Source: a virus. From it: a stretch of 26,218 nt of DNA. Both the position numbers and the translations under genes were made by a program. The DNA lies in the IMG/VR virus record IMGVR_UViG_3300025120_000464, positions 1 through 26,218 of that record, one strand, 5' to 3'. This document shows, piece by piece, positions 1-11,513 of the stretch; positions within the stretch are counted from its first letter, which is position 1; the number at the start of each line of letters is the position of its first letter. The notes under the pieces are model-generated. The model worked only from the letters and a program-made list of their open reading frames with translations, had not been told where the DNA came from and searched no databases.

Positions 1-591
1 CATCATGATTCCATATCTGAAGAGATTAAACTATATACCTTCGGGGTCGACTAATGAGACTTGCAACACAGAAGGACGCACGGCACAAATAGACAGCCAA
101 TTACACGGCTAGGACTATTAAGGTAATGTCAGTTTGATACAGCAGGATAAGAAGCCAATGCTAGGTAGTATGAAAGTACTAGCAATTATATAAAGAATTT
201 ATATATTATCTAACTTGTAAGAAAGTAGGTAGGGACTTATCGATAAGCGTATGTATCAAGATAGGTTGATAATTCAGCTAAAATTTGAAAGTAATAACAT
301 TCAGTTAGTCATTGCGTAAGCTTAAGACGTGGAAATACTGGAACGCATAATAACTATGTCAATGTATAGGTTAGTCCAAGTAAGAGAAGGGTGGCAGGAA
401 CTTAGTAATTGATAGAGCAACCAGTAAAACCGTCAAATAAACACTGATAATTACAAGTAAATAAAGAGTAGAAGTATTTTTATATATTTTTATATCCATA
501 AACACAGGGTATGAACGGTTTTAAAATTGGACTATGAATCCAGCGTAAAGCGTGGACAGGTTATCCGTTTTAATTCCGTTTGTACTTTGTT
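1..591 (+). ncRNA. Gene-free region, candidate large structured RNA (class unknown)
   Basis: I see no credible gene here: all frames are broken by stops, and the longest readings (a 17-codon open stretch from base 1, and a 35-codon one from base 5) have no ribosome binding site or family resemblance. Inverted repeats are frequent. Examples are GCTAG/CTAGC near 160-185, the 8-bp pair TATATAAA/TTTATATA near 190-210, TATCAA/TTGATA near 257-274, TGCGT/ACGCA at about 314-348, TGGA/TCCA at 528-542, and AACGG (514-518) with CCGTT (576-580). The region lies just upstream of a double-hairpin repeat and a ribozyme on the same strand. Phages are known to encode large ornate RNAs (GOLLD and ROOL classes), but I cannot match this to any of them. 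It could equally be an origin or a long untranslated leader. The 5' limit is outside the window. Confidence 0.35.
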
Positions 592-663
592 AAATCCTAT
601 ATATTTGCAGGTTTTGATCTGTAAATACATAGCATTTAAGCTATGAAAATCAACAACTTAAAA
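592..663 (+). repeat. Double-hairpin intergenic repeat, copy R1
   Basis: This is the first of four related elements of about 75 nt. It reads CCTATA, then a first hairpin (TTGCAG 605-610 with CTGTAA 619-624, one G-U pair), then a second hairpin (CATAGC 628-633, GCTATG 640-645), then the conserved AAATCAACAACTTA. The other copies sit directly in front of genes, but this one runs into the hammerhead ribozyme at 670. A ten-codon reading (ATG 643 to TAA 675) starts in the second hairpin but has no ribosome binding site. The conservation fits an RNA element better than a leader peptide. Confidence 0.7.
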
Positions 664-669
664 GAGATA

Positions 670-770
670 GGTTAACTGACGAGGATTCTATATCCGAAAC
701 TATCAAGCGAAACGGAAACGTCATAGAGTGCAATGGCGTGGGCATAAGTAGTAGCTTGATAGTCTTAACC
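670..770 (+). ncRNA. Type I hammerhead ribozyme with enlarged stem III (HH1)
   Basis: Every conserved hammerhead element is present. Stem I is GGTTAA (670-675) with TTAACC (765-770). The core CTGACGA is at 676-682. Stem II is GGAT/ATCC (683-686, 692-695) closing a TCTAT loop, followed by GAAA at 696-699. Stem III is a perfect 9-bp helix, 700-708 with 754-762, continued by the A699-T763 pair. C764 is the cleavage-site nucleotide, so the predicted cut is between 764 and 765. Stem III carries 45 extra nucleotides, which form a further 7-bp hairpin (718-724 with 733-739, one G-U). Next to stem III, GAA (709-711) faces AGTA (750-753), the signature of a loop-E/sarcin-ricin motif. The 3' product would start 25 nt before the gene at 790. 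Stem I is short and no stem I-loop II contact is obvious, so the rate is unknown. Confidence 0.88.
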
Positions 771-789
771 AACACAATAGGTATATAAA

Positions 790-1077
790 ATGATAGAAAA
801 CGAAAAATACATAACTCATGAAGGTAAACGCACTAATAAATCTAATTTAAAACTGTTGTATTCAATGAATGACAACGGCAGTGATGTTGAAATATTAGTT
901 AGTTATTGTACGCCTGTAGCATATGCTATTGACGGCTTATGGCATTACACGTCTACTAAATATAGTCCAACAACTAGTAAACAAATCACGAGATTTTTGA
1001 ACGCAAAAACTGGTGGACGTGGCAACGCTTTAGAGGTGAAACAGGAAGAAATAGAAAAAATATACAAAAACGTATAA
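790..1077 (+). CDS. Small early protein, DUF8033-like
   Basis: A 95-residue protein and the first gene downstream of hammerhead HH1, whose cleavage would leave a 25-nt leader. The segment around residues 37-66 (SYCTPVAYAIDG, then YSPTTSKQITRFL) resembles small phage proteins of the DUF8033 type, in which a TPVA segment is followed by a TTSKHI-like segment. That resemblance is from memory and moderate. No enzyme motif, signal peptide or membrane segment is visible. The upstream sequence (AATAGGTATATAAA) has only a weak ribosome binding site, so the start is chosen because it is the first ATG of the open frame. It is probably an early host-interaction protein, but the function is unknown. Confidence 0.72.
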   Translation: MIENEKYITHEGKRTNKSNLKLLYSMNDNGSDVEILVSYCTPVAYAIDGLWHYTSTKYSPTTSKQITRFLNAKTGGRGNALEVKQEEIEKIYKNV

Positions 1078-1078
1078 T

Positions 1079-1153
1079 AATTATACAACTACTAGGTGAT
1101 GTCATCTAGTAATTGCATAGTATTTATACTATGAAAATCAATAACTTAGAGAG
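1079..1153 (+). repeat. Double-hairpin intergenic repeat, copy R2
   Basis: This is the second copy. The first hairpin is TACTAG (1090-1095) with CTAGTA (1106-1111); its stem sequence differs from R1, R3 and R4 but pairing is kept. The second hairpin is CATAGTA (1116-1122) with TACTATG (1127-1133), again with a compensated pair (T-A where the others have C-G). The conserved AAATCAATAACTTA follows, with GAGAG as a possible ribosome binding site for the ATG at 1159. A 7-bp palindrome, GTATAAT-A-ATTATAC (1072-1086), overlaps the 5' edge and the stop codon of the preceding gene. Confidence 0.75.
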
Positions 1154-1158
1154 ATATT

Positions 1159-1353
1159 ATGAAAAATATAAACTTAACTACTGAGCAATACGCTGTGATA
1201 GATAGCCTTGAATCTGAGATTATGTATCAGATGCAGACGTTTGGTGATGTAGACGTTGAAGGACTGTATAAAGGTGATTATATCACTAGATTATTTATGC
1301 CTAATGAGTTTCATTATGCCATTGAAAGCGTAGCTTATCGTAGTTATGGGTAA
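1159..1353 (+). CDS. Small early protein of unknown function
   Basis: A 64-residue acidic protein that I do not recognise. The start is supported by GAGAG eight bases upstream, within the 3' end of repeat R2. The sequence suggests an N-terminal helix (residues 5-27, TEQYAVIDSLESEIMYQMQ) followed by a mixed segment rich in tyrosine and phenylalanine. It has no cysteine pairs, signal peptide or membrane segment. It belongs to the cassette of short genes, each preceded by a copy of the double-hairpin repeat, that leads to the antirestriction gene. Small early phage proteins in this position often target host functions, but nothing in this sequence shows that directly. Confidence 0.65.
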   Translation: MKNINLTTEQYAVIDSLESEIMYQMQTFGDVDVEGLYKGDYITRLFMPNEFHYAIESVAYRSYG

Positions 1354-1427
1354 ATCCTATACAATCGCAGGGTGATGTCGCCCTGTTTTTGCATAGCATT
1401 TAGCTGTGAAATCAACAACTTATGGAA
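1351..1427 (+). repeat. Double-hairpin intergenic repeat, copy R3
   Basis: This is the third copy. The first hairpin is CAGGG (1368-1372) with CCCTG (1381-1385). The second is CATAGC (1392-1397) with GCTGTG (1403-1408), where a T-G wobble replaces T-A. The conserved tail AAATCAACAACTTA follows. One A is missing after the GTG compared with the other copies, which changes the reading frame of the tail. That argues that nucleotide sequence and structure, not a peptide, are what is conserved. Confidence 0.75.
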
Positions 1428-1432
1428 ATATT

Positions 1433-1627
1433 ATGGATTATATAAAATCATCAAAAAATAATTTAATTGGAATAAAGTCCTTTAAAGTTATGTCAAGCAG
1501 AAGAAAAAGAAGGTGTATCAATTATCAAGTACACTGCTTTGGTATTAAAGAAGACAATTATGGAAGCACAGTGTATACGATTGTAATACCTTCTATCAGA
1601 TACAGGTATTCATATGGAACTATATAG
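1433..1627 (+). CDS. Small basic early protein of unknown function
   Basis: A 64-residue protein that I do not recognise. The reading frame also opens at GTG 1406, inside the second hairpin of repeat R3. I chose ATG 1433 because it occupies the same position after the repeat as the starts at 1159 and 1720, with a weak TGGAA ribosome binding site. The protein is basic in its middle (SSRRKRRCIN near residues 21-30) and then rich in tyrosine and isoleucine, suggesting a small beta-rich fold that could bind nucleic acid. Two cysteines (near residues 28 and 35) are too few for a zinc finger. The gene lies in the repeat-punctuated cassette upstream of the antirestriction gene. Confidence 0.6.
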   Translation: MDYIKSSKNNLIGIKSFKVMSSRRKRRCINYQVHCFGIKEDNYGSTVYTIVIPSIRYRYSYGTI

Positions 1628-1634
1628 ATAAATA

Positions 1635-1712
1635 CAATACCTATACCATTGCAGGGTGCTAGTCATCCTGTAATTGCATAGCTATTGCTATGAAATACAA
1701 CAACTTATGGGA
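1635..1712 (+). repeat. Double-hairpin intergenic repeat, copy R4
   Basis: This is the fourth copy, directly before the ArdC-like gene. The first hairpin is CAGG (1652-1655) with CCTG (1667-1670), extendable by TTG/TAA including one G-U pair. The second is CATAGC (1677-1682) with GCTATG (1687-1692). The tail is AAATACAACAACTTATGGGA, whose GGGA can serve as the ribosome binding site for ATG 1720. Confidence 0.75.
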
Positions 1713-1719
1713 ATATATT

Positions 1720-2634
1720 ATGAAAATAAATAAAAAAATACAAGCTATCTATGACAAGATTATTAAAGCTATGGAAACAGGGGCTGATTGGTCAAAGTCA
1801 TGGACTGAAATGGGAATGGGACTACCTAAGAATCCATGTAGCAAGATAACGTATCGTGGAATGAACACGTTTATATTATTGTTTGAGTTACAAGATAAAG
1901 ATTATCCAGTAAATAATTGGGCAACTTATATTCAATGGAAAAAAGCAGGTAGAATCATACCAAAAGACACTAAAGGCGTAGACTTAATCAAGTGGAAGGT
2001 CGTCCATAAGAAGGACGATAACGGAAATGAGACAGATGAAACCTATGGTTTTTACAATGCGTTTACGGTGTTCAATGAGTCTCAATTGGAAGGGTATGAA
2101 CCACCAGTTGAAACTGATGAGCAAGTATCTGAGTTTGCTATTCAGTGGAAGGTTGAAGAGTATGTGCAAAACACTAACGCTTCAGTTAAATATAGTGAGA
2201 CAGGTGGTGCGTTTTACCACCCAAGACTTGACTATATTAACATGCCTAACAAGACTAGGTTCTTTGATACTAAGGACGCAGATGCTGAAGGTAACTACTA
2301 TGCAACACTGTTGCATGAGTTAGTACACTGGACAGGTGCTGAAGATAGATGTAACCGTAGTGGAATATCCACTAAGGGTAAGGATAAAGATATAGATGAT
2401 ACGTTTAGAGGTTCATATGCCTTTGAAGAATTGGTTGCTGAGTTAGGAGCTACAATATTATCAGTGCAATTGGGCGTTGAAGTAGAGCCAGTCGCTAATC
2501 ATTCTGCATACCTAAACAACTGGTTGAAGGCATTGAAGAATGACCCTTCTGCAATGATGACAGCCTTTAGTAAATCAACTAAAGCAATCATGTACCTTGA
2601 TGACATGCAATCTAAAAAGAAAGCAGTAGCCTAA
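1720..2634 (+). CDS. ArdC-like antirestriction protein with metallopeptidase domain
   Basis: A 304-residue protein with the two-domain layout of the ArdC/TraC-like family. The N-terminal half (about 1-125) resembles the ArdC single-stranded-DNA-binding domain: the segment around TYRGMNTFILL, the conserved WATYIQWKKAG, and a VFNESQLEG near the end. The C-terminal half is a zinc metallopeptidase-like domain with HELVH at residues 199-203 and a downstream FEELVAEL (235-242) supplying the third zinc ligand. ArdC proteins protect incoming DNA from host restriction, and proteins of this type are injected or made very early. The frame also opens at ATG 1690, inside repeat R4. I prefer ATG 1720, which lies behind GGGA and aligns with the neighbouring repeat-gene spacings. 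No key residue is missing. The family call is strong; antirestriction in this phage is inferred. Confidence 0.9.
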   Translation: MKINKKIQAIYDKIIKAMETGADWSKSWTEMGMGLPKNPCSKITYRGMNTFILLFELQDKDYPVNNWATYIQWKKAGRIIPKDTKGVDLIKWKVVHKKDDNGNETDETYGFYNAFTVFNESQLEGYEPPVETDEQVSEFAIQWKVEEYVQNTNASVKYSETGGAFYHPRLDYINMPNKTRFFDTKDADAEGNYYATLLHELVHWTGAEDRCNRSGISTKGKDKDIDDTFRGSYAFEELVAELGATILSVQLGVEVEPVANHSAYLNNWLKALKNDPSAMMTAFSKSTKAIMYLDDMQSKKKAVA

Positions 2635-2649
2635 CGCTACATATAACAT

Positions 2650-2676
2650 AGGGTAGGGAATCATCTCTACCCTTTA
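2650..2676 (+). terminator. Possible factor-independent terminator after the antirestriction gene
   Basis: A 10-bp stem is formed by AGGGTAGGGA (2650-2659) and TCTCTACCCT (2664-2673), with one G-U pair and a four-base ATCA loop. It lies 15 bases after the stop codon at 2634. The following tract, TTAATGTTT, is only moderately U-rich, so it may be a weak terminator or an mRNA-stabilising hairpin. It would end or attenuate the first early transcript. Confidence 0.5.
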
Positions 2677-2677
2677 A

Positions 2678-2693
2678 TGTTTCACGTGAAACA
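2678..2693. promoter_or_regulatory. parS: Perfect 16-bp parS-like ParB-binding site
   Basis: The sequence TGTTTCACGTGAAACA is a perfect palindrome and matches the widespread bacterial chromosomal parS consensus TGTTNCACGTGAAACA at every position. By simple expectation, one specified 16-mer occurs by chance in 26 kb about six times in a million. It lies between the candidate terminator and the ribosome binding site (CTGGAGA) of the gene at 2706. No ParA or ParB gene is seen in the window, so if it is functional it would be bound by the host ParB or by a phage protein encoded elsewhere. The alternative is an operator for an unrelated dimeric regulator. Confidence 0.75.
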
Positions 2694-2705
2694 CTGGAGA
2701 TATAA

Positions 2706-2936
2706 ATGAAACTAGAAGATAAACTATTACAAGACTTAAAATCGGAATGTGCTTATATCCAAGCAAAAGAGGAAGACCAATCATGGCGTCATAATGGTGA
2801 TGGAGAGCGTGAAGATACTGAATACGATATCAGAGTATCACAAAACGTTAAGGACTATTTAGAGGGTGTCTTAGGGGTTACTTTCATTTGGTCGGAAGAT
2901 AAAGAAGATTGGATAAAAGTAAAAGCAGATAATTAA
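2706..2936 (+). CDS. Small acidic early protein of unknown function
   Basis: A 76-residue, highly acidic protein that I do not recognise, with TGGAGA placed well for initiation. It combines an N-terminal helix (residues 1-22, KLEDKLLQDLKSEC), a strongly charged middle (DGEREDTEYD) and a C-terminal part with aromatic residues (VTFIWSEDKEDWIKV). The acidity and size recall DNA-mimic inhibitors encoded by phages, but that is only a possibility suggested by charge. It is the first gene after the parS-like site and begins the run of tiny genes that leads to hammerhead HH2. Confidence 0.68.
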   Translation: MKLEDKLLQDLKSECAYIQAKEEDQSWRHNGDGEREDTEYDIRVSQNVKDYLEGVLGVTFIWSEDKEDWIKVKADN

Positions 2937-2956
2937 TATAACAGTGGGAGCAAGTA

Positions 2957-3127
2957 ATGAAAATTATAGAAGATATAAAGAAAGTCTTTGATGTATGCAG
3001 TGAACATACAAATGAAAATTTAAAAGATGAGTACATGTATATGTATTCAAATGATTTTTTAAACAGTCATCACTTTAAAAATATAATGACGAGACAAGAA
3101 ATAAAATTGAGGGTAACAATAAAATGA
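2957..3127 (+). CDS. Small early protein of unknown function
   Basis: A 56-residue protein starting at ATG 2957 behind GTGGGAGC, which is a fair ribosome binding site. Its stop overlaps the next start by four bases (ATGA at 3124-3127), a typical sign of translational coupling in this phage. Residues 1-20 look helical (MKIIEDIKKVFDVC), followed by a tyrosine/methionine-rich stretch and a basic C terminus. It has no family resemblance that I can name. Support rests on the start signal, the coupling and the consistent packing with its neighbours. Confidence 0.55.
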   Translation: MKIIEDIKKVFDVCSEHTNENLKDEYMYMYSNDFLNSHHFKNIMTRQEIKLRVTIK

Positions 3128-3297
3128 CAGACGATATAGTAATGTTATGGGTATGGGTCGCAATGATATGTTTCATTGGACTCATAGTAGGGTTAGGTAT
3201 GTTCTTGTATACCATGTATAAGACTGACCCTGAGTTTGTATTGTGTTGGACTGGTTCGCTAGTCTTAGGACTAACGCTAGTCATGATAATATTCTAA
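3124..3297 (+). CDS. Small two-helix membrane protein
   Basis: A 57-residue protein coupled to the upstream gene by an ATGA overlap. Two hydrophobic segments are clear: residues about 5-29 (IVMLWVWVAMICFIGLIVGL) and about 38-57 (FVLCWTGSLVLGLTLVMIIF), joined by a short polar loop, YKTDPE. It is predicted to sit in the host inner membrane as a hairpin. Its location among early rather than lysis genes argues against a classical holin and suggests a superinfection-exclusion or membrane-modifying role, but that is inference. No specific family is recognised. Confidence 0.6.
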   Translation: MTDDIVMLWVWVAMICFIGLIVGLGMFLYTMYKTDPEFVLCWTGSLVLGLTLVMIIF

Positions 3298-3312
3298 TGG
3301 TTGAAGTAGAAC

Positions 3313-3387
3313 ATGTTATATGTTATGCTAGGCTGTTTAGTGGGGATGCTAATGGTAGTGCCATTCATGGAATGGATAAAGAGATAG
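3313..3387 (+). CDS. Possible 24-residue single-span membrane peptide
   Basis: A short frame from ATG 3313 encodes a hydrophobic peptide (MLYVMLGCLVGMLMVVPFMEW followed by a basic IKR end) that looks like one membrane helix with a positive C terminus. The ribosome binding site is weak (GAAGTAGAAC). Its TAG stop ends at 3387, which is the first base of hammerhead HH2 stem I. A competing 31-codon frame from ATG 3297 overlaps the previous stop, has no ribosome binding site and encodes an unremarkable peptide, so I prefer the membrane peptide. Reality is uncertain because it is so short. Confidence 0.35.
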   Translation: MLYVMLGCLVGMLMVVPFMEWIKR

Positions 3388-3436
3388 GTTAACTGACGAG
3401 GATTCTATATCCGAAACGCCGTGAGGCGTCTTAACC
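3387..3436 (+). ncRNA. Minimal type I hammerhead ribozyme (HH2)
   Basis: Stem I is GGTTAA (3387-3392) with TTAACC (3431-3436). The core CTGACGA is at 3393-3399. Stem II is GGAT/ATCC with a TCTAT loop (3400-3412), and GAAA is at 3413-3416. Stem III is ACGCC/GGCGT closed by a GTGA (GNRA) tetraloop (3416-3429). C3430 is the nucleotide before the predicted cut, between 3430 and 3431. All core positions match the consensus. The 3' product would begin 25 nt before the gene at 3456 and keeps the GAGGA ribosome binding site. Stem I and stem II are identical to those of HH1. Confidence 0.93.
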
Positions 3437-3455
3437 AATACACACGAGGAAGATT

Positions 3456-3653
3456 ATGAAACTAGATATAAACACGGTGGACGCTGAAGTACTGCTTTAT
3501 GCACTTAATTACTTAGAATCGTCTGACTTAGTCGACAGACCTAGACATGGCTCATTCATGGAAGGTAAACAACAACTACTCAGTGAATTAAGTAATAATG
3601 TTATGGACGCAATACGTAGGGCTAAGGACACTAAAGCTTCACCAATAAATTAA
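3456..3653 (+). CDS. Small early protein, first of a tandem paralogous pair
   Basis: A 65-residue protein that I do not recognise, read from ATG 3456 behind ACACGAGGAAG. It directly follows ribozyme HH2, whose cleavage would leave a 25-nt leader. Its N-terminal half (MKLDINTVDAEVLLYALNYLESS) aligns with the next gene (MKIELTIVEADIIVYALSHVNDS), so the two are tandem duplicates that have diverged. The C-terminal half looks helical. The stop codon TAA (3651-3653) is part of a 21-bp repeat of the leader that lies downstream of HH2. Function unknown. Confidence 0.68.
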   Translation: MKLDINTVDAEVLLYALNYLESSDLVDRPRHGSFMEGKQQLLSELSNNVMDAIRRAKDTKASPIN

Positions 3654-3670
3654 CCAATACACACGAGGAA
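3650..3670 (+). repeat. Second copy of the post-ribozyme leader, 21-bp direct repeat
   Basis: Bases 3650-3670 are identical to 3431-3451 (TTAACCAATACACACGAGGA plus A). The first copy starts exactly at the predicted HH2 cleavage site and carries the ribosome binding site of the gene at 3456. The second copy carries that of the paralogue at 3676 but has no ribozyme before it. The duplicated unit is therefore leader plus gene, without the ribozyme. Confidence 0.9.
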
Positions 3671-3675
3671 ACTAA

Positions 3676-3852
3676 ATGAAAATTGAACTAACAATAGTTG
3701 AAGCAGATATAATAGTCTATGCTCTAAGCCATGTAAATGATTCGCATGATAATGGTGAACTTAAAAGCTCATATATATCAGCTCATAAAAACACTTTAGA
3801 GGGTTTGACTAGGCATGTTTATGAAACGCTAAAAAATGAAATACACGAGTGA
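3676..3852 (+). CDS. Small early protein, second of a tandem paralogous pair
   Basis: A 58-residue protein from ATG 3676 behind CGAGGAAACTAA. It shares the pattern MK-hydrophobic, T-V-x-A-(D/E), YAL and then a serine-containing turn with the upstream product, and diverges in the C-terminal half (SAHKNTLEGLTRHVYETLKN, probably helical). Its stop overlaps the GTG start at 3849 by four bases. Function unknown; the duplication suggests dosage or diversification of a host-directed activity, which is only inference. Confidence 0.62.
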   Translation: MKIELTIVEADIIVYALSHVNDSHDNGELKSSYISAHKNTLEGLTRHVYETLKNEIHE

Positions 3853-4142
3853 AGAAACATAAGAAGGAACACCAGTTAATACTGGATAGAGTAATGGAAT
3901 ATGTAATGTTGATTGGCATACCAACAAAGCCTGAGCAACTCAAGATAGAAAGTTATCTTGATGTTGCATTGGACGGCTCAACTAGGTACAAAGATTCGGA
4001 GGTAGCCTTCAAGCACCTTTGTGATTTAGTCCAAGACTATTATGGTTGGGTTGACCGAGAGCAAACCGAGACGGCTGTTGATATGTTAGTTAATAATGTT
4101 GGCATGATTGCCAAAAAGAAAAGGAAGGAGAGATTACATTGA
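3849..4142 (+). CDS. Early protein of unknown function
   Basis: A 97-residue protein with a GTG start overlapping the upstream stop (GTGA at 3849-3852). It is predicted to be mostly helical, with a basic beginning (KKHKKEHQ) and a very basic end (AKKKRKERLH) around a neutral, leucine-rich core. There are no cysteine clusters and no recognised motif. The basic termini could bind nucleic acid. The next gene begins at TTG 4139, inside its last codons, so the two are coupled. Confidence 0.62.
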   Translation: MKKHKKEHQLILDRVMEYVMLIGIPTKPEQLKIESYLDVALDGSTRYKDSEVAFKHLCDLVQDYYGWVDREQTETAVDMLVNNVGMIAKKKRKERLH

Positions 4143-4258
4143 GTAAAGGAGACAGACAACGTAAGTCTCAAGTCCCTGACCGTAAGGTTGGGGAGAACTG
4201 GGACAAGATATTTAAAAACAAACCAAAGAAGAAGGAGAATAAAGATGAAGATAGATAA
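4139..4258 (+). CDS. Small conserved phage peptide (SKGD...NWDKIF type)
   Basis: A 39-residue basic peptide read from TTG 4139, with a strong ribosome binding site (AAGGAGAG) ending in the upstream gene. The layout, beginning SKGDRQRKS, then VPDRKVGENWDKIF, then a lysine-rich tail, matches a tiny protein type seen in many phages, in which a K/R-x-F-D-x-N-(W/Y)-D-x-I-F segment follows a polar N terminus. The role of that family is not known. It overlaps the next gene (ATG 4245) by 14 bases. The match to a recurring pattern makes it likely real despite its size. Confidence 0.6.
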   Translation: MSKGDRQRKSQVPDRKVGENWDKIFKNKPKKKENKDEDR

Positions 4259-4577
4259 ACACGTTTTAGAACTATTAAAAAAACGTCTAACACGTAAGAG
4301 ACTGAGACGAGTGTTGTCTCATTACAATTACGTTGAAAAGTTAGACGGTAATGGAAACTGTATGCAACAGAATGGGAAAAGTCCTATGTATGACACATAC
4401 TGTCTACTTAACTTTGGCTATGTGTATCCTATCTACTGGGAGACTGGTGAGGGTGAAATAGAAATCTGTGATGCACACGAGGTTGAGGTAGCTGAGATAT
4501 CCATAACTGGTACTGATAGTGATATCATAGATGATGCGTTAGATGAGAGACAATTTAGTGGGGAGATATTTGAATGA
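4245..4577 (+). CDS. Early acidic protein of unknown function
   Basis: A 110-residue protein. The frame opens earlier (4188), but ATG 4245 has GAAGGAGAA at the right distance, so I take that start. The N terminus is basic and helical (KKRLTRKRLRRVLSHY). The rest is acidic and aromatic, with a probable beta-rich part (YCLLNFGYVYPIYWETGEGEIEI) and an acidic tail (DSDIIDDALDER). No family recognised. The basic/acidic split suggests a small regulator or inhibitor, without firm evidence. Its stop overlaps the next start by four bases (ATGA). Confidence 0.62.
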   Translation: MKIDKHVLELLKKRLTRKRLRRVLSHYNYVEKLDGNGNCMQQNGKSPMYDTYCLLNFGYVYPIYWETGEGEIEICDAHEVEVAEISITGTDSDIIDDALDERQFSGEIFE

Positions 4578-4849
4578 TATTAGCAAAAATTAAAGAACGA
4601 AGTGGAGAGTATGAGTATGAGCATTATTGTTGGTACCAAACAGTAAGCAAGGAAGATTATAAAAATGGAAAACTAAACGAAAGGCATGTGCTATCAGATT
4701 TTTTTAGTAATGAAAGAATTGATGATGAATATGATAAAACTAATAAGGGGTACTGGCTTGATTCAATTGCAATAGTATGGGTCGAATGGGTTAAAGAAAT
4801 AACAGAAGATGAACTAACAACGCTGAAGAAGTTTCGGGTTGTTTATTAG
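4574..4849 (+). CDS. Early protein of unknown function, tryptophan- and tyrosine-rich
   Basis: A 91-residue protein coupled to the preceding gene by an ATGA overlap. It is rich in glutamate, tyrosine and tryptophan (EYEYEHYCWYQ near the start; GYWLDSIAIVWVEWVKEI near residues 59-76). The second segment could be a strand pair or an amphipathic helix rather than a true membrane span, because charged residues interrupt it. I do not recognise a family. It sits in the block of small early genes between ribozymes HH2 and HH3. Confidence 0.6.
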   Translation: MILAKIKERSGEYEYEHYCWYQTVSKEDYKNGKLNERHVLSDFFSNERIDDEYDKTNKGYWLDSIAIVWVEWVKEITEDELTTLKKFRVVY

Positions 4850-4860
4850 GAGGATAACAA

Positions 4861-4929
4861 ATGACAGTAGTAGTATGGGATGCTATCGCAGAGTTAAGGG
4901 CTCAATACAGTAGATACGACCTAACCTAG
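4861..4929 (+). CDS. Possible 22-residue leader peptide before ribozyme HH3
   Basis: A very short frame starting at ATG 4861 behind a strong AGGAGGATAACA ribosome binding site. The peptide (MTVVVWDAIAELRAQY followed by SRYDLT) looks like a short amphipathic helix. Its TAG stop (4927-4929) ends on the first base of HH3 stem I, the same arrangement as at HH2. The strong start signal argues that it is translated. It could be a functional peptide, or a way to bring ribosomes up to the ribozyme and so affect its folding. Confidence 0.45.
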   Translation: MTVVVWDAIAELRAQYSRYDLT

Positions 4930-4978
4930 TTATACTGATGAGGATTCTATATCCGAAACGCCGTGAGGCGTCTATAAC
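4929..4978 (+). ncRNA. Minimal type I hammerhead ribozyme (HH3)
   Basis: Stem I is GTTATA (4929-4934) with TATAAC (4973-4978). The core CTGATGA is at 4935-4941. Stem II is GGAT/ATCC with a TCTAT loop (4942-4954), and GAAA is at 4955-4958. Stem III is ACGCC/GGCGT closed by GTGA (4958-4971). C4972 precedes the predicted cut, between 4972 and 4973. Stem I differs from HH1 and HH2 on both strands yet remains perfectly paired, which is strong evidence that the fold is under selection. The 3' product keeps the AGAGGAAA ribosome binding site of the gene at 4995. Confidence 0.93.
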
Positions 4979-4994
4979 AACAAGAGGAAAACAA

Positions 4995-5204
4995 ATGGAT
5001 AAAGATAAAGAACAGTGTAGTTATTCCAATGGAATAATGACAGACAAAAAGTTTATAGAAGAAGTCTTTGAGATTGCGTGTGGTGATGGAGCAAGATGCG
5101 TGAAGTGGGCAACAGGACAACCAAGAGAGTTTACTAAAGAAGAAGTATTGGAAAGGCTAATGGAGTTTAGCGACAATGCTTTGAAGTGGGAAGAAGGAGA
5201 ATAG
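4995..5204 (+). CDS. Small acidic early protein of unknown function
   Basis: A 69-residue protein starting at ATG 4995 behind AAGAGGAAAAC, directly downstream of HH3. The frame extends upstream through the ribozyme, but translation from there is unlikely. The N terminus is charged (DKDKEQCSYSN), followed by a helical body (KKFIEEVFEIACGDG, then FTKEEVLERLMEFSDNALKWEEG). Three cysteines are present without a zinc-binding spacing. No family recognised. HH3 cleavage would give this gene its own 22-nt leader. Confidence 0.65.
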   Translation: MDKDKEQCSYSNGIMTDKKFIEEVFEIACGDGARCVKWATGQPREFTKEEVLERLMEFSDNALKWEEGE

Positions 5205-5206
5205 AG

Positions 5207-5446
5207 ATGAGTAAAACAATAAAATATGAATATGAAGTGAGTGATTCATCTGTTGATGTTAGGTCATGGACTATTGAAAGTGATAGACAGCTAACAGAAG
5301 GTGAAGTGGCAGAGATACATGAAAATGCAAACATGGATGATGAAGGAAAAGAGCAACAATATTCAGAAGACATTACAGTAACTTATAACGGCACAGAATA
5401 TGGAGATGACGCACAACCACGACTTGAAGGAAATTTTAAAAGATGA
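5207..5446 (+). CDS. Small very acidic early protein of unknown function
   Basis: A 79-residue protein. I take ATG 5207, three bases after the upstream stop and behind GAAGGAGAATAG; the frame also opens at 5186 inside the upstream gene. The composition is strongly acidic with alternating hydrophobic and polar residues (TIKYEYEVSDSSVDVRSWTIES), suggesting a small beta-rich domain, then a helical segment and a second strand-like part (SEDITVTYNGTEYG). Its acidity would suit a DNA or protein mimic, but no family is recognised. Its stop overlaps the next start by four bases (ATGA). Confidence 0.64.
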   Translation: MSKTIKYEYEVSDSSVDVRSWTIESDRQLTEGEVAEIHENANMDDEGKEQQYSEDITVTYNGTEYGDDAQPRLEGNFKR

Positions 5447-5586
5447 GTAAGTTTATTAAAGAAGAGTGGTCGCCATTAAGACAAGCGTTGAGTGAACTTG
5501 ATGCAGAGTTAGATGGAGTAGTAACTTCTGAGATACAAGAATGTATTGACGCAGTGTGGGACGAGTTAGATAAGATAGAAGAATAA
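5443..5586 (+). CDS. Small acidic helical protein of unknown function
   Basis: A 47-residue protein from ATG 5443, coupled by an ATGA overlap to the gene before it, with GAAGGAAATTTTAAAAG as a distant ribosome binding site. Nearly the whole chain is predicted to be helical and acidic (WSPLRQALSELDAELDGVV, then EIQECIDAVWDELDKIEE), with a heptad-like pattern of leucine and isoleucine that suggests a coiled coil or helical hairpin. It is the last of the small early genes before the replication module. Function unknown. Confidence 0.55.
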   Translation: MSKFIKEEWSPLRQALSELDAELDGVVTSEIQECIDAVWDELDKIEE

Positions 5587-5644
5587 AATAAATTAGTAAA
5601 ACATAATTAGATATGTTACGCTAAAGGAGTAATGTGGTACAAAT

Positions 5645-6115
5645 ATGAAATGGTTTAAACACAAGAGTGATAGCCACCAGTCATCAAGATTAAGAATGGC
5701 TAGTGGCGACAACTTCCTGCAAGGCTACGGATTCTACTTCTGTATAGTAGAAATGGTAGCCATGCGTGTTGAAGATGTAGACAAACCGACAGTAGTTTTC
5801 CAAACAAGTTATCTTAAAGCCATGTTAGGTGGCATTAATGCAAGGACTTTGACAAAACTATTGGCAAACTTTGAGGATAGTGGACTGATACTGAGTAAGA
5901 ACTTTGATAAAAGTATTGAAATCACAGTGCCTAAACTCAAGGAAATACAAGACAATTATACAAGAGCAGTGCGAAGTAACTACGGAGAGACTGATAAGAA
6001 TGTACGTCCTAGAATAGATAAGAATAGAATAGATAATAATATAAAAGAAAAGATTAGTGTTGCTGATAATGAAGCAGAGAGAATTAAATTATTAGGAGGT
6101 AGTGATGAAGTATAA
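5645..6115 (+). CDS. DUF4373/DnaD-like replication initiation protein
   Basis: A 156-residue protein whose N terminus (MKWFKHKSDSHQSSRLRMA, then GYGFYFCIVEMVA) matches the opening of the DUF4373 (Lin1244/Lin1753-like) domain found in phage replication initiators and DnaD-like proteins: a tryptophan-phenylalanine-lysine-histidine start, then a G-(Y/L)-Y-(F/W) helix. Residues 1-110 would form a winged-helix DNA-binding domain. The C-terminal part is polar and basic (VRPRIDKNRIDNN) and ends in an acidic tail, a usual place for a helicase-loading contact. The start is preceded by AAAGGAGTAATG. It is the first gene of the replication module, upstream of a helicase-loader candidate, and fits origin recognition. 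Confidence 0.75.
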   Translation: MKWFKHKSDSHQSSRLRMASGDNFLQGYGFYFCIVEMVAMRVEDVDKPTVVFQTSYLKAMLGGINARTLTKLLANFEDSGLILSKNFDKSIEITVPKLKEIQDNYTRAVRSNYGETDKNVRPRIDKNRIDNNIKEKISVADNEAERIKLLGGSDEV

Positions 6116-6302
6116 CCCAATGACAGACTTTGTATGTTATGCGAGGGCTAAATATGGTGATGAGATAACAACTTGTTATAAACTCACAGCAGATGAGGGT
6201 GAACCACACCCTTGTTCATGTCATGAGGACAGATTAATAACAGGTAAATCTGAGACAGGGTGTACGCCTTCGGAACAAACCATATTTGATAGGAGGAAGT
6301 AG
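6105..6302 (+). CDS. Small cysteine-containing protein of unknown function
   Basis: A 65-residue protein from ATG 6105 with a strong AGGAGG five bases upstream; a GTG at 6102 is less well spaced. It contains four cysteines and a histidine in its middle (residues about 10-50, including HPCSCHEDR and ETGCTP), which could bind a metal, though the spacing fits no zinc-finger class that I know. Its start lies inside the initiator-like gene, and its stop overlaps the next start by one base. It is presumably a replication accessory factor by position only. Confidence 0.6.
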   Translation: MKYNPMTDFVCYARAKYGDEITTCYKLTADEGEPHPCSCHEDRLITGKSETGCTPSEQTIFDRRK

Positions 6303-6748
6303 TGTTATCTGATAAAGATATAGGTAACTTCTTTGTGATGATGCACTCAATGTTCGGTCATAAGTTTAAGTCGTCATACGGTAGTGCTGTTGATAGCAAG
6401 GGTAGTATCACAATGACGGCTAAGATATGGAAGAAGACATTGAATGGTATACCACATATCAAAGATGTTATGGGTGATTTGTTTCACCCTGACTCACCAC
6501 TTATGGAGGGTAAGGACTGGTGTCCTGACTTGAGAGAGGTGGTTCAGGTATGTAAGAAGTTATCTGATAAGAAGATAAAAAGTCTAGCTCACTTGAAAGA
6601 GATAGAAGACTTTAAGAAGCTAGGCAACAAACCAAGAGACCCACTGGAACACAGACCCAGTAAAATATTGACAGACTTTATGGACAACGTAGACAAAAAG
6701 AAACTAAACAACACACGCAGAGGTAAGTATGAAAAAGAAAGTAAATAA
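6302..6748 (+). CDS. Lambda P-like replicative helicase loader (probable)
   Basis: A 148-residue protein from GTG 6302, with AGGAGGAAG directly upstream. It resembles short helicase loaders of phages (lambda P and related): a helical N terminus (residues 1-20, with FVMMHSMFG), a conserved tryptophan-leucine-G-I region (KIWKKTLNGIPHIKDV, 41-56), and a W-x-P-x-x-x-E-(V/F)-x-x-x-C segment (W73, P75, C84) like the WPPSLPEFxxxC of that family. Such proteins deliver the host DnaB helicase to the phage origin. The gene lies directly after the initiator candidate, the usual order for an O/P-type pair. Family assignment is by pattern and moderate. Confidence 0.55.
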   Translation: MLSDKDIGNFFVMMHSMFGHKFKSSYGSAVDSKGSITMTAKIWKKTLNGIPHIKDVMGDLFHPDSPLMEGKDWCPDLREVVQVCKKLSDKKIKSLAHLKEIEDFKKLGNKPRDPLEHRPSKILTDFMDNVDKKKLNNTRRGKYEKESK

Positions 6749-6959
6749 AACAGAGGAAGTATTAAAGTACCTGAAGAAGAAAGGGGAGATAGATACATGG
6801 ACAGCTATTACAAAGTTCAGAGCAACTAGGTTGTCAGCTATTATCTTTAACCTTAAAGCTAAAGGCTACAAGATAACAACTAGAGATGAGAAAGACAGTG
6901 AGACTGGAGCAAGGTATGTTACATACATGCTTGAATATAATATAGGGGGTAGGAAATGA
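6729..6959 (+). CDS. Helix-turn-helix (HTH_39-like) protein
   Basis: A 76-residue basic protein starting within the preceding gene (20-base overlap) behind GAGGTAAGT. Residues about 8-50 have the winged-helix pattern of the small HTH_39-type phage domain: helix EEVLKYLKKKG, then IDTWTAITKFRATRLSAIIFNLKAKGYKI, where the last helix and GY mark recognition helix and wing. The C-terminal part (VTYMLEYNIGGRK) would complete the wing. It probably binds DNA as a regulator or replication accessory protein. Its stop overlaps the next start (ATGA). Confidence 0.7.
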   Translation: MKKKVNKTEEVLKYLKKKGEIDTWTAITKFRATRLSAIIFNLKAKGYKITTRDEKDSETGARYVTYMLEYNIGGRK

Positions 6960-7255
6960 AAGTAACTTACGATGAACACGGTGATACTAAAACGGAGGAC
7001 ATTGATATGCACGGAGATATAATAAAACCTGATGAGCAGGGCATGGAAGAAGAAAACCAACAAGATGTTACGCCTGAGATGATTGCCTTTAGCAAGGCTA
7101 ATGCTCAGATTATAAACAACTATGAGTTTGTAAATTCCATTGATAAATTCTTACCACATTGTAAGGACGGTACGGTTTATCATAAGCTGTTAGAGATTAA
7201 GCAAGGTATACAAGTTGATACTCAGTACCTTGAAGAACAGGCACAAAATTTATAG
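6956..7255 (+). CDS. Early protein of unknown function
   Basis: A 99-residue protein coupled to the HTH gene by an ATGA overlap and preceded by GGGGGTAGG. The N-terminal 40 residues are acidic and low in complexity (TKTEDIDMHGD, DEQGMEEENQQD) and probably disordered. The C-terminal 60 residues look like three helices (TPEMIAFSKANAQIINNYEFV, then YHKLLEIKQGIQVD). No family recognised. By position it belongs to the replication and recombination module. Confidence 0.62.
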   Translation: MKVTYDEHGDTKTEDIDMHGDIIKPDEQGMEEENQQDVTPEMIAFSKANAQIINNYEFVNSIDKFLPHCKDGTVYHKLLEIKQGIQVDTQYLEEQAQNL

Positions 7256-7275
7256 CTAAGAAACCCACAGTTGCT

Positions 7276-7533
7276 ATGCGTAAACACTACCAAGATGTGG
7301 TGTCGGTAGGCTGTATCGTCTGCCGACTTCACTACGGTATACGTAGCGACCCATGTGTGCATCATCTTTTAAGTGGGGCAGGTATGGGGCAACGTAGCAA
7401 ACAAGTAATCGGATTGTGTTGGGAACATCACCAAGGTAACACTGGTATACACCACAACACTAAGGTGTTCGAGGACAAGTTTGGTACTGAGGAGTATTTG
7501 TTAGGTGAAATGAATAAGTTAATAGACGAATGA
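7276..7533 (+). CDS. Ref-like (RecA-dependent) HNH nuclease, probable
   Basis: An 85-residue protein with the metal and catalytic pattern of the Ref/RecA-dependent nuclease type of HNH enzymes: C13 and C16 (CIVC), C27, paired histidines 29-30 (CVHHLL), the GAGMGQR segment (35-40), C48, HH 51-52 with GN (WEHHQGN), GIHH (57-60), and a FGTEEYLL end. Such phage nucleases cut DNA in a RecA-filament-dependent way or process recombination intermediates, which fits the ERF and exonuclease genes just downstream. No ribosome binding site precedes ATG 7276. The frame stays open upstream to 7234, and family members usually have about ten more N-terminal residues (here KKPTVAM precedes), so a rare start such as ATA 7252 is possible. 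Confidence 0.65.
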   Translation: MRKHYQDVVSVGCIVCRLHYGIRSDPCVHHLLSGAGMGQRSKQVIGLCWEHHQGNTGIHHNTKVFEDKFGTEEYLLGEMNKLIDE

Positions 7534-7536
7534 TGT

Positions 7537-7563
7537 TTGACTATTTATTTGTTTTACTATAAT
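7537..7563 (+). promoter_or_regulatory. Sigma70-like promoter for the recombination genes
   Basis: TTGACT (7537-7542) and a perfect TATAAT (7558-7563) are separated by 15 bases, or by 16 if the -35 box is read as TTTGAC. This is the best host-type promoter in the window and lies in the only sizeable gap (7534-7654) of the replication and recombination region. Transcription would start near 7570, giving a leader of about 85 nt before the ERF gene. The spacing is slightly short, so strength is uncertain. Confidence 0.65.
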
Positions 7564-7578
7564 ATAGTAGGAAATAAC

Positions 7579-7652
7579 CCTTCCGTGGTGGGAGGATTCA
7601 CGAGTAGACAGACCATAAGCTGTCTACTCACAATCAAAGTAACGGAGGTTAC
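7579..7652 (+). promoter_or_regulatory. Structured leader with sequestered ribosome binding site
   Basis: Three hairpins can form in the ERF leader. The first is CCTTCC (7579-7584) with GGGAGG (7590-7595). The second is a perfect 10-bp stem (7602-7611 with 7620-7629) and an 8-nt loop. The third, GTAAC/GTTAC (7639-7643, 7648-7652), holds the ribosome binding site GGAG in its loop. CTTCCG (7580-7585) can also pair with the ribosome binding site CGGAGG (7643-7648). This would allow two exclusive states and therefore translational control. No U-tract follows the 10-bp stem, so it is not a classical terminator. No known riboswitch class is recognised. Confidence 0.5.
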
Positions 7653-7654
7653 AT

Positions 7655-8182
7655 ATGAGCAAACTATTAACAGCATTGAATGAGTTTCAAAAACTTAGCG
7701 TCAGTGCATCTAAAGGTGGTACTAACCCACACTTTAAATCGGAGTACAGCACATTGGAAAATGTGATTAGTGCAGTCAATCAAGGCAGTCAGTTTGGTCT
7801 TGTGTTTACACAAGAGGTAAACTTTACAGATGATATGCAAGTCTTTGTTGAAACCAGCATAAGACATATTGATACTGTTGAATCTATCAAATGTAAAGTA
7901 CCAGTCTTTTGCAAAGACATGACTAACCCACATCAACTAGGGTCAGGCATAACCTATGCAAAAAGATACGGACTACAATCTTTGTACGGTCTTCCTTCAG
8001 AAGATGATGACGGCAACAAAGCTGTCGGCAACAGTCCCAGTGGCAAAGCTGTCAATGATAAGCCAAAGAAAGTTGTAGACAATAAAGTTAATCAAGATAT
8101 AGGAGGAGACCTTAAGCAATTAGAAAAGAATCTAAAGCAGGGTAAACCTATGGGAGTAGAGGAACTTGGTCAAAGTATATAA
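7655..8182 (+). CDS. erf: ERF-family single-strand annealing protein
   Basis: A 175-residue protein of the ERF superfamily of phage recombinases, which anneal complementary single strands during DNA repair, recombination and genome concatemer formation. The diagnostic N-terminal part is clear: GGTNPHFKSEYSTLENVISA (residues about 21-40), then a (F/V)-G-L-V-x-T-Q-E segment, and a GSGITYAKRYGLQSLYGL region (about 96-115) followed by the acidic EDDDGNKA. The C-terminal third is low in complexity and basic, as usual. It begins at ATG 7655 behind GGAGG, under a sigma70-like promoter and structured leader. The exonuclease gene overlaps its end, giving an annealase/exonuclease pair like Red beta and exo. 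Confidence 0.9.
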   Translation: MSKLLTALNEFQKLSVSASKGGTNPHFKSEYSTLENVISAVNQGSQFGLVFTQEVNFTDDMQVFVETSIRHIDTVESIKCKVPVFCKDMTNPHQLGSGITYAKRYGLQSLYGLPSEDDDGNKAVGNSPSGKAVNDKPKKVVDNKVNQDIGGDLKQLEKNLKQGKPMGVEELGQSI

Positions 8183-8828
8183 CTTAAGAGCCAGTATGAT
8201 AGCAAGAGTAATAGGCATGGACGCTTATTGCTCTAGGCAAAATCACTTCGAGATACTGGTTGGTAATAAAGAAGACAAGCCTGTCAATGAAGAGTACGTG
8301 GCACACGGCAACGAGTGTGAGAAGTACGGCATAGCACAGGTAATGATAACAACAGGTGAGTTGGTTCGTAACTGTGGTACTGAGTTGTTAGGAGAGCAGG
8401 TAAACACGGTAAGACCTTTAGAAAGGTCAGATAATATAGACGTAAATTTATCTTGTACGCCTGACGGTTATGTAGGCTCAGACGGTGTAGTGGAAGTTAA
8501 AGCCCCTTACTTTGTTCAAGATGATTATGATAAATATATCACAAGGTATCTACCCCAAGTATATTTTCAACAGTATCTAACAGGGAGGAATCATACTTAC
8601 TTTTGTATCTATCAAATGGGTAACTCAAAAGTGTTTAACATTCCTTACAATAAAGATTATGTAGATAACTTTATGCTTCCAAAAGTATATGAGTTTTCTA
8701 GGTATCTTGTTAAAGGAGAGTTAGACAAAGACTTTAAGACCAAGAGAAATAGTAAGCAAGACTTTATATACAAAAGGGAGTGTCCTTACACAGAGATTAC
8801 TAACGTAAAGAAGGTGTCTAATGTTTAA
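8166..8828 (+). CDS. YqaJ-type (lambda exonuclease-like) recombination nuclease
   Basis: A 220-residue PD-(D/E)xK exonuclease that would resect double-stranded ends to give single strands for the ERF protein. Catalytic signatures are visible: HGNECEKYG with E50, the CTPDGYV segment with D100, the EVK triad E110-V-K112, and a QVYFQQYLTG motif near 131-140 typical of YqaJ. The start is TTG 8166, inside the ERF gene, behind GGAGTAGAGGAAC; an internal ATG at 8196 would remove part of the first helix (LRASMIARVIGMD), which the family needs. Length fits compact members. It is the partner of ERF by overlap and function. Confidence 0.85.
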   Translation: MVKVYNLRASMIARVIGMDAYCSRQNHFEILVGNKEDKPVNEEYVAHGNECEKYGIAQVMITTGELVRNCGTELLGEQVNTVRPLERSDNIDVNLSCTPDGYVGSDGVVEVKAPYFVQDDYDKYITRYLPQVYFQQYLTGRNHTYFCIYQMGNSKVFNIPYNKDYVDNFMLPKVYEFSRYLVKGELDKDFKTKRNSKQDFIYKRECPYTEITNVKKVSNV

Positions 8829-9177
8829 GCTACCTCAATTAGAATTAGAACAAGCCTTAGACTACCACGCTAAACTGGTAGAACTTAGGGCGAAGGCTAC
8901 TGGTGATGTATATAAATACACAAAGAAAAGAGAGGTTGCTTTCTCTTTGGCTCTAATTAATACGGCTGAATTAAAAGCAACGCAACCTATGAGAGATGCA
9001 ATAGCAAACACAGACGAAGATGTTATTAAATATAACGACATGATTGCTGATGCAAAACAATCCGAGTCATTATCGACTGGGAAAATTAATAATTTAGAAC
9101 ACAAGCTCAGACTCTTTCAAACTGTAAGTGCAAATGAAAGAAGAGAGAAGGGGTTCTATCAACAGAACGGAGATTAG
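8821..9177 (+). CDS. Helical early protein of unknown function
   Basis: A 118-residue protein starting at ATG 8821 inside the end of the exonuclease gene, behind AAGAAGGTG. It is predicted to be almost entirely helical: a long first helix (LEQALDYHAKLVELRAKATGD), a basic turn, and two further helices rich in glutamate, lysine and alanine, suggesting a coiled coil. No family recognised. Overlap with the exonuclease gene suggests an accessory of the recombination module. Confidence 0.66.
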   Translation: MFKLPQLELEQALDYHAKLVELRAKATGDVYKYTKKREVAFSLALINTAELKATQPMRDAIANTDEDVIKYNDMIADAKQSESLSTGKINNLEHKLRLFQTVSANERREKGFYQQNGD

Positions 9178-9178
9178 T

Positions 9179-9541
9179 ATGAGAATATTTATGGTATGGG
9201 CAGATGAAAACAAAAAAGGTGTGCTTGATGTTGCCATGTCAAGCAGAAGGGAAAGGAGATTGAATCATAAACTTTCTGAAAGTCATCAGGTTGGAGATGG
9301 TTTATCAGTTCACAATAATATGGAAGCAATAAATGATTTCTGTAAACATTATCATTCTGTCCTTGAGAACCAAGGTCGTATTGATGAAGATACAGCAGAA
9401 GGAAAGCCAGTAGAAGGATTGATAGATGAGTTAATAGGTACATTAGATAGTGAAACAATGAGTACGCTAGATACATTAGACCCTACCAGTCAAAAATATA
9501 TACAGGTAACATTAGTTCCTGATATAAACAAAATGCACTAA
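9179..9541 (+). CDS. Early protein of unknown function
   Basis: A 120-residue protein. I take ATG 9179 with ACGGAGATT upstream, one base after the previous stop; the longer frame from 9128 lies inside the upstream gene and has no better signal. The N terminus (MRIFMVWADENKKG) looks like a buried strand followed by a charged turn. A basic patch (SSRRERRLNHKL) and an acidic C-terminal half (EDTAEGKPVEGLIDELIGTLDSE) follow. I do not recognise it. Confidence 0.63.
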   Translation: MRIFMVWADENKKGVLDVAMSSRRERRLNHKLSESHQVGDGLSVHNNMEAINDFCKHYHSVLENQGRIDEDTAEGKPVEGLIDELIGTLDSETMSTLDTLDPTSQKYIQVTLVPDINKMH

Positions 9542-9556
9542 CAAAAGGAGAAGACA

Positions 9557-9814
9557 ATGGACAAGATAACAATTAAATTATTTTTTAATGAAGTATACAA
9601 CGATGTTATATCGGTGTTATTTAAACAGATGAACATACACAAGGAGACCGAAGGTACTAACCCTAAACCTATAGGAAGTAACGCTAAGTTTACAGCGTAT
9701 GAAGACTTTGAGATTAAGAAAGGAGAGACTTATGACATCTCTTTATGGGGACAGTTTGATGAGGATAAAGGATATCAGTCAGCAAACATACAAATAAAAA
9801 AAGCAAAGGAGTAA
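9557..9814 (+). CDS. Small beta-rich early protein of unknown function
   Basis: An 85-residue protein behind AAAAGGAGAAGACA, an excellent ribosome binding site. Alternating hydrophobic residues suggest a beta-rich fold: KITIKLFFNEVY, then NAKFTAYEDFEIKKGETYDISLWG, then YQSANIQIKKAKE. The size and the position beside the recombination genes would suit a small nucleic-acid-binding (OB-like) protein, but no aromatic pattern proves that. Function unknown. Confidence 0.66.
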   Translation: MDKITIKLFFNEVYNDVISVLFKQMNIHKETEGTNPKPIGSNAKFTAYEDFEIKKGETYDISLWGQFDEDKGYQSANIQIKKAKE

Positions 9815-9817
9815 TCA

Positions 9818-10060
9818 ATGGCAAAGGATTGGAAAGCTAACTGGGACAGGTGGTACGGAAACCCTGAGAATCGTGCTAAGAAACGTGCATATTCTTTGAA
9901 GAGGTACAATGAAAAGAAAGAGTTTATCTTGGAGCAAAAGAAAAACAGAATTGCTAATCAAACGCCTGAAGAAACAGAGGATAGGCTTAGAAAAATGCGT
10001 GAGTATTCTAACCAAAGATATAAAGCAAAAACTATGAAGGAGTTAAAAGACAACGCATGA
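9818..10060 (+). CDS. Small basic, lysine/arginine-rich protein
   Basis: An 80-residue, strongly basic protein from ATG 9818 behind AAAGGAGTAATC, three bases after the previous stop. The opening (KDWKANWDRWYGNPENRAKKRAYSLKRYNEKK) resembles the N-terminal tail of phage HNH homing-type proteins, in which N-P-E-x-R-x-K-(K/R) repeats come before the nuclease domain, but no HNH core follows. It may be a stand-alone DNA-binding protein or a remnant of a longer nuclease. The rest is helical and charged (EETEDRLRKMREYSNQRY). Confidence 0.62.
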   Translation: MAKDWKANWDRWYGNPENRAKKRAYSLKRYNEKKEFILEQKKNRIANQTPEETEDRLRKMREYSNQRYKAKTMKELKDNA

Positions 10061-10209
10061 ACTGTTGGAACTGCAACACGGAACTAATATGGGGAGGAGA
10101 CCATGATGTTGAGGATAGCGAGGAATATTCTATGGTAACAAACCTATCATGCCCCAGCTGTGGTTCTTATGTAGAAGTTTATTATCCAAAGGAGGACTTA
10201 AATGAGTGA
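10057..10209 (+). CDS. Small zinc-ribbon protein
   Basis: A 50-residue protein from ATG 10057, overlapping the upstream stop by four bases and with GAAGGAG upstream. Two CxxC knuckles (C3-C6 and C32-C35, as CPSCG) separated by an acidic stretch form a clear zinc-ribbon pattern. The last part (SYVEVYYPKEDLNE) would be the closing beta strands. Such ribbons bind nucleic acid or protein partners; no specific partner can be named. Its end overlaps the next start (ATG 10202). Confidence 0.62.
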   Translation: MNCWNCNTELIWGGDHDVEDSEEYSMVTNLSCPSCGSYVEVYYPKEDLNE

Positions 10210-10531
10210 ATGGGATAAAAGTGATATTGCAAGTGAGTTAGCTGAATCAGATAATCAAACACCTAAAGAAGAAATGCAACAAATGGTACAAGGAACTTAC
10301 CTTAATGTTTTAGAAGATTATGAGTTGGACACATGGATTCCTTATAATTATAAATGGAAGGGCATTTTAAATTCTTATACAAGAAAATATCCTGCACATC
10401 ATGTAATTAAAGCTATACATACAGCAGAATATTATCTGCAAGAAAGCGAGTATCATGACAACAAAGAAACAATTAAAAACTTTACAAAAAAAATTGGAGG
10501 TATACTTCACAATAGAAGTCTTGGAAAATGA
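10202..10531 (+). CDS. Early protein of unknown function
   Basis: A 109-residue protein with a strong start signal (AAAGGAGGACTTAA). It begins with an acidic stretch (SEWDKSDIASELAESDNQTPKEE). A compact helical region with many aromatic residues follows (DTWIPYNYKWKGILNSYTRKYPAHHVIKAIHTAEYYL, about 43-79) and then a basic end (KNFTKKIGGILHNRSLGK). The pattern of the middle part resembles the C-terminal domain of some phage replication or DnaD-like proteins, but too weakly to assign. It overlaps the next gene (ATG 10528) by four bases. Confidence 0.62.
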   Translation: MSEWDKSDIASELAESDNQTPKEEMQQMVQGTYLNVLEDYELDTWIPYNYKWKGILNSYTRKYPAHHVIKAIHTAEYYLQESEYHDNKETIKNFTKKIGGILHNRSLGK

Positions 10532-11512: not shown

Positions 11513-11513
11513 A

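Follow-up and report, generated by a model that had tools for sequence, protein, structure and literature searches.

The put sites of phage HK022 are simple RNA elements of about 70 nt. RNA-mediated antitermination is named in PMC6256539, and PMC12286853 describes GOLLD and ROOL as large, structured RNAs of phages whose function is not known and which often lie near tRNA islands. Hammerhead ribozymes are reported in PMC3088659 from intergenic regions of phages such as PaP3, from sites next to ardA and, in halovirus HF2, from close to where the 5' end of an early transcript was mapped. The window analyzed here is an entire IMG/VR virus record of 26218 bases, in which the + strand carries the early genes up to about 11 kb and the − strand carries the structural genes beyond that point. 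The tract at its left end, positions 1–499, is very probably a structured leader RNA, and we lean towards the full reading that it is a folded non-coding 5' leader of the phage early transcript acting in cis. Like the put RNA, the proposed leader would be a structured RNA heading a phage early transcript, but it measures about 400–500 nt and any antitermination by it would be hypothetical. With GOLLD and ROOL it shares large size and structure, whereas it lies at the head of an early operon, has no Rfam match and belongs to a record in which ARAGORN found no tRNA. A hammerhead-like sequence farther downstream (HH1) resembles these phage hammerheads in preceding an early gene; the leader is not itself a hammerhead.

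A nearly 600-bp tract with no credible reading frame had been called exceptional in this record by the first-pass annotation, and both points held. No frame of at least 50 aa overlaps 1–789, the longest six-frame ORF in 1–591 has 44 aa, and among 44 gaps separating hand-picked ORFs the largest are 198, 158 and 121 bases long; the first early gene (95 aa, phrog_5643) lies at 790–1077 on the + strand. Since a longest ORF of 44 aa is usual for shuffled DNA (211 of 500 same-composition shuffles had no longer one), the tract appears non-coding, not purged of frames in any special way. We compared three copies of this leader type, class A: the window, in which the record end cuts off the 5' end of the leader, L008 (IMGVR_UViG_3300009420_003523, positions 3361–3757), whose first gene is 96% identical to that of the window, and L110 (12040–11648, minus strand). 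Longer protein frames were rejected, as start, frame and stop are not all kept in the three copies; a 55-aa frame of L110 is interrupted by stops in the same register of the window and L008, and a frame running from 329 is thrown out of register in the window by a single-base gap. The conserved protein frame that the earlier reading had named as contrary evidence did not appear, and only a frame of 11–12 codons keeps its start and register across all three copies. This putative coding frame, a possible leader peptide, occupies 54–92 of the + strand and reads MRLATQKDARHK in the window, MRLATQKDARHG in L008 and MRLATQRDARH in L110. Its start column is common to the three copies, a G-rich stretch ends 7 nt upstream, the stop falls at the same place or one codon off, and the differences are one conservative K/R change and a last codon that is variable or missing. 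If the frame were translated, stalling on it or the absence of stalling could alter the downstream fold and early expression, as in an attenuator, and the shared start codon and frame, the near-constant stop and the conservative change would all suit such a device. However, the core block that contains most of the frame (44–86) is invariant at 42 of 43 positions of the three-copy alignment, third codon positions included, which constraint on the RNA explains equally easily, and one scan found no + strand intrinsic terminator in 1–1200, a wider scan scoring a site at 1367–1386. We regard a leader-peptide attenuator as improbable.

Between the conserved blocks the three class A copies differ strongly, and whole hairpins have been gained or lost. 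A peripheral hairpin at 87–119 carries a compensatory change in L008 (G96-C109 to A-U) and is entirely missing from L110, and a stretch of local hairpins at 185–230 of the window is missing from L110 and mostly from L008. The 3' domain (277–438) contains the stacked helices 326–331/430–434, 336–341/421–426 and 357–363/408–414, the latter two holding 6 double-change pairs. In the consensus structure of window 1–592 and its homologues, 94.6% of cells pair and double changes occur in 15 of 120 pairs. Sliding the partners of these 120 pairs by 1 to 3 columns left at most 3 double-change pairs, a control biased in favor of the structure because this was derived from the same alignment. A fairer control, in which columns were shuffled within gap-pattern and variability classes and then refolded, gave 5.0 ± 2.3 double-change pairs for leader 1–500, and 0 of 100 shuffles reached the 15 observed, so that the covariation proposed earlier as a check was found, in three sequences. 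The consensus energy of 1–500 has a z of −3.31 on the + strand and −1.12 on the − strand; it is this energy that supports the + strand, since the number of double-change pairs is equally high on the − strand (14, with 5.2 expected), as complements predict. The structure is conserved, and its consensus form, resting on three copies, is tentative. Thermodynamic stability was discarded as proof of structure for 1–500, single-sequence fold energies being at chance (z −0.66 for the window, +0.62 and +1.44 for the relatives); the excess stability relative to shuffles of 1–591 (z −2.67) and 1–790 (z −4.99) comes from the hairpin at 504–590 and the elements after it. The description of the tract as hairpin-rich thus holds for the strong 504–590 hairpin and fails for 1–500, where the energy is no better than that of shuffled DNA. 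A stem reported at 314–348, read as GCGU 314–317 with ACGC 343–346, was also lost, two of its four pairs being broken in L008 and one in L110, and the conserved pairing in this area is instead 326–331 with 430–434. The broader proposal of a large structured non-coding RNA before the early genes gained from the covariation and from relatives in which entire hairpins are cleanly absent. When viral contigs were scanned by pattern for further class A copies, only L008/L025 (one contig) and L110 came up; a scan of genome contigs gave one Mycobacterium match that was taken as chance, 7 loci came from an ArdC scan, the contig of L008 again and six distant ones, and a search of phage records with window 1–8000 found no further copies.

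None of 4227 Rfam families matched the window at gathering threshold, GOLLD and ROOL among them, and ARAGORN found 0 tmRNA genes, so these candidate identities from the first-pass annotation were abandoned. In a lax Rfam search of 1–790 the only matches were RAGATH-7 at 16.4 bits and AaHKsRNA82 at 19.4 bits, both far under their gathering scores; the RAGATH-7 match (RF03159, gathering score 111.8) covers 592–786, a stretch spanning a double hairpin and HH1, and was treated as chance. For the L008 leader a lax search returned 4 sub-threshold matches only; the one with the lowest E in this leader, Ysr283 (E 0.0087, 17.9 bits, gathering 58), is absent from the window and was dropped as chance. 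Across six sources searched up to E 0.5, the only match was Hammerhead_3 in L013 and L022, at 39 bits each (39.1 in L013) and under the gathering score of 48.5. A covariance model limited to the leader 3' domain (R1, 277–438) matched strongly only its three source class A copies among 100 sources, and a fourth row at window 839–991 (E 1.9) was not credible. With filters off, R1 did not find the leaders of the other classes (B, C and D, described below), the best of 12 rows scoring 12.5 bits (E 1.4) and 0 of the 12 falling on a B or C leader; a row on L017 4653–4809 (8.6 bits, E 8.5) that overlaps the D leader was taken as chance. If our reading is right, the class A leader would be a large structured RNA of marine phages outside the classified families, and in the open-access literature searched we recognized no paper describing it.

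The left end of the record falls inside the tract, and L008 continues farther upstream, through a promoter-like site to a divergent terL (terminase large subunit) gene. Its interval from terL to gene 1, 2597–3915 or about 1.3 kb, holds + strand frames of at most 42 aa and, among frames of at least 40 aa, − strand frames of 83, 58 and 52 aa. At 3308–3335 a sigma70-type promoter-like sequence, TTGACA-16-TATAGT, faces the early genes, and TTGACA-18-TATACT at 2656–2627 faces terL. With the start placed 7 nt past the −10 box, window base 1 would lie about 18 nt past the predicted transcription start; both this start and transcription of the leader are predicted from consensus matches. Promoter-like sites of this kind, scoring 10–11 of 12, stand just upstream of the leader in all four scanned loci (L008, L110, L027 and L032). 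Their totals per region clearly exceed shuffles only in L008 (15 against 8.5 ± 3.0), the other regions having 9 against 6.2 ± 2.7 (L110), 7 against 7.1 (L027) and 6 against 8.5 expected (L032). The promoter sequence is nearly common to L008 and the class B loci and different in L110 and L032. GTAC-type repeats at L008 3141–3222, upstream of the early promoter, are possible operators or origin repeats. An origin had been the other option offered for the tract, and a replication origin or other DNA-level element would suit the place between divergent operons, these repeats, and the conservation of an AU tract (below) as exact sequence. Yet the repeats lie upstream of the promoter and outside 1–591, inside which we saw nothing supporting an origin, and conservation in 1–499 tracks RNA pairing, with a better consensus energy on the + strand. 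We consider this explanation very improbable.

The class A leader ends in an AU tract of 23 nt (TTTTTATATATTTTTATATCCAT, 477–499, + strand), followed on the same strand by a long hairpin (504–590) and a double hairpin (592–645, made of 602–627 and 628–645). The AU tract does not vary among leader classes A, B and C, in 6 of 6 aligned loci and also in L029, the tract of L110 giving no independent support, as L110 was found with it as a probe. The long hairpin is likewise present behind classes A, B and C; it folds with a z of −5.8 (500–592) and an alignment energy z of −7.3 in relatives, and its 3 double-change pairs do not exceed what shuffles give (1.5 ± 1.3; 23 of 100). The stem noted earlier at 514–580 is part of this strong hairpin and recurs in the relatives. 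The double hairpin (z −4.1 for 592–660) can alternatively pair as one longer stem, and is for this reason a possible two-state switch. Similar double-hairpin elements stand before each of the first four early genes, at 592–645, about 1090–1133, 1367–1410 and 1650–1692, three of them found by pattern and that at 1367 by eye and by the terminator scan. Since other phages have hammerhead-like sequences before the first gene, the double hairpin may be a processing or regulatory element with a role equal to theirs.

Unrelated leaders occupy the same position in other loci: class B in L027, L029 and L030, and class C in L032, neither related in sequence to class A. Behind each comes the same 23-nt AU tract and, in loci that extend that far, a long hairpin and a double hairpin of the same type, L029 ending inside the long hairpin. 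Class B, three close sequences, has 3 double-change pairs against 0.7 (2 of 100) and an energy z of −0.13, so that a structure is suggestive only; class C is one sequence. From these comparisons, it is the slot, rather than the RNA itself, that is common to the relatives. It is possible, though we think it unlikely, that the head of the early operon is a slot for unrelated large structured RNAs, placed between the early promoter and a constant processing module, transcribed before anything else after infection, and released to act on the host. Equally doubtful is the extension by which this slot would be an RNA counterpart of the slots that swap host-takeover and counter-defense genes, with release by ribozymes or processing hairpins.

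The hammerhead consensus comprises a CUGANGA and GAAA core, three stems and an NUH cleavage site. HH1 (670–770, + strand) has the core motifs CTGACGA and GAAA and a GUC, which we take to match this consensus; it agrees with it by sequence and fold (z −2.5 for 661–780), and its predicted activity would cleave after 764. Rfam hammerhead models gave no row on the window, either at gathering score or in lax searches. The record holds further hammerhead-like copies at 3385–3438 and 4927–4980, and the three sequences between early genes could cut the early transcript into pieces. The idea that HH1 defines the 3' end of the RNA did not survive, because HH1 follows the leader in only one of three class A copies, being absent behind it in L008 and L110, and because near-copies (95.5–96.4% identical) in three contigs, L006, L007/L014 (one contig) and L012, all lie at one same place between two other genes. 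HH1 therefore appears, from its distribution, to be a separate, exchangeable intergenic element and a neighbor of the leader.

A fourth leader type, D, is present in a different phage group (L013, L015–L017, L020 and L022), where, by our reading, a TTGACA site precedes it and a hammerhead-like sequence and the early genes follow; in L022 a small gene (frame 4664–4900) lies between leader D and the gene-1 homologue. In the D tract of L017 the longest frames have 45 aa (+ strand) and 62 aa (− strand). Aligning four D loci gave 11 double-change pairs, where shuffles gave 3.1 (0 of 100 reaching 11). The consensus energy favors the − strand (z −4.65; + strand z −3.59), so that it does not place leader D on the + strand.

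In the model that we propose, host RNA polymerase would start at a sigma70-type promoter just beyond the left end of the record and transcribe, in order, the leader RNA, the AU tract, the long hairpin, the double hairpin and the early genes. The leader would act in cis, either by carrying the polymerase past the terminator-like hairpins that lie between the early genes or by setting the processing and stability of the early mRNA, and the various leaders at the slot would serve as interchangeable forms of one control module. Within 1–11600, promoter-like sites on both strands are at chance (44, with 43.8 ± 5.7 in shuffles). Terminator-like hairpins of the + strand lie between early genes at 1367–1386 and 2650–2673 and, where the early genes end, at 11108–11126; in 1–11600 such sites number 8 against 4.8 ± 2.1 expected, an unclear excess over chance. 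The chance-level promoter count and the terminator-like hairpins in the early region fit a single leader promoter that reads through, and, together with the leader coming first and the constant elements after it, they lead us to favor a cis role, which taken alone we hold to be plausible, somewhat short of probable. The closest rival is a trans-acting RNA, made first, cut free by a ribozyme or by processing at the AU tract and hairpins, and acting on host factors or defenses; conflict with hosts would then explain why leader types are swapped. The replacement of entire leaders ahead of constant elements, the early position, and the hammerhead-like sequence behind leader D and HH1 behind the window leader are all consistent with this explanation, which we rate as rather unlikely, given that class A occurs only at the early position among 100 sources, that HH1 is missing from two of three class A copies and that no target is known. 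Should the cis-acting leader be right, the role of this RNA would be testable by simple deletion at its location, and RNA swapping before constant elements would let phages vary RNA functions as they vary proteins.

Among named phages, Vibrio phage Phriendly (L117) has a terminase 56% identical to that of L008, and its positions 140–1556 contain no annotated gene and an unannotated 60-aa frame at 873–1055. We rejected the whole of 140–1556 as one gene-free leader starting from TTGACA at about 743, as the 60-aa frame lies inside it and the 743 site fails scoring; promoter-like sites scoring 11 of 12 are found at 934–962 and 1021–1049, with 6 sites in all against 6.3 expected. A hammerhead-like sequence at 1495–1546 stands directly before the early gene at 1557 and is 92.7% identical over 41 nt to that of L017. 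By analogy, 1056–1550 is perhaps a similar leader, about 450 nt long, with a hammerhead-like ribozyme at its end. The fold energy of 1056–1550 is at chance (z −0.51); that of 772–1550 is lower (z −4.69), but this stretch includes the 60-aa frame. The later checks of the frame, the promoter sites and the fold energy thus weakened the support that Phriendly lends to the leader model. As a cultured phage with a related terminase and maybe a similar ribozyme-ended leader, Phriendly could give a laboratory system.

Some further features of these genomes were recorded. The hammerhead-like sequences of L017 (about 4910–4985) and Phriendly have an extra core base (CUGAAUGA) and almost no stem II, and Rfam searches gave no hammerhead row in either. 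A tRNA-like look in Phriendly was not borne out by ARAGORN. Phriendly 105–1104, which includes the frame at 873–1055, has a fold energy z of −6.4 (20 shuffles), and part of it is conserved in Vibrio phage VP506. Baldr (OQ414636), the nearest named phage by terminase, has two long divergent regions in which no feature is annotated, at 31114–31799 and at 38919–644, the latter across the record start.
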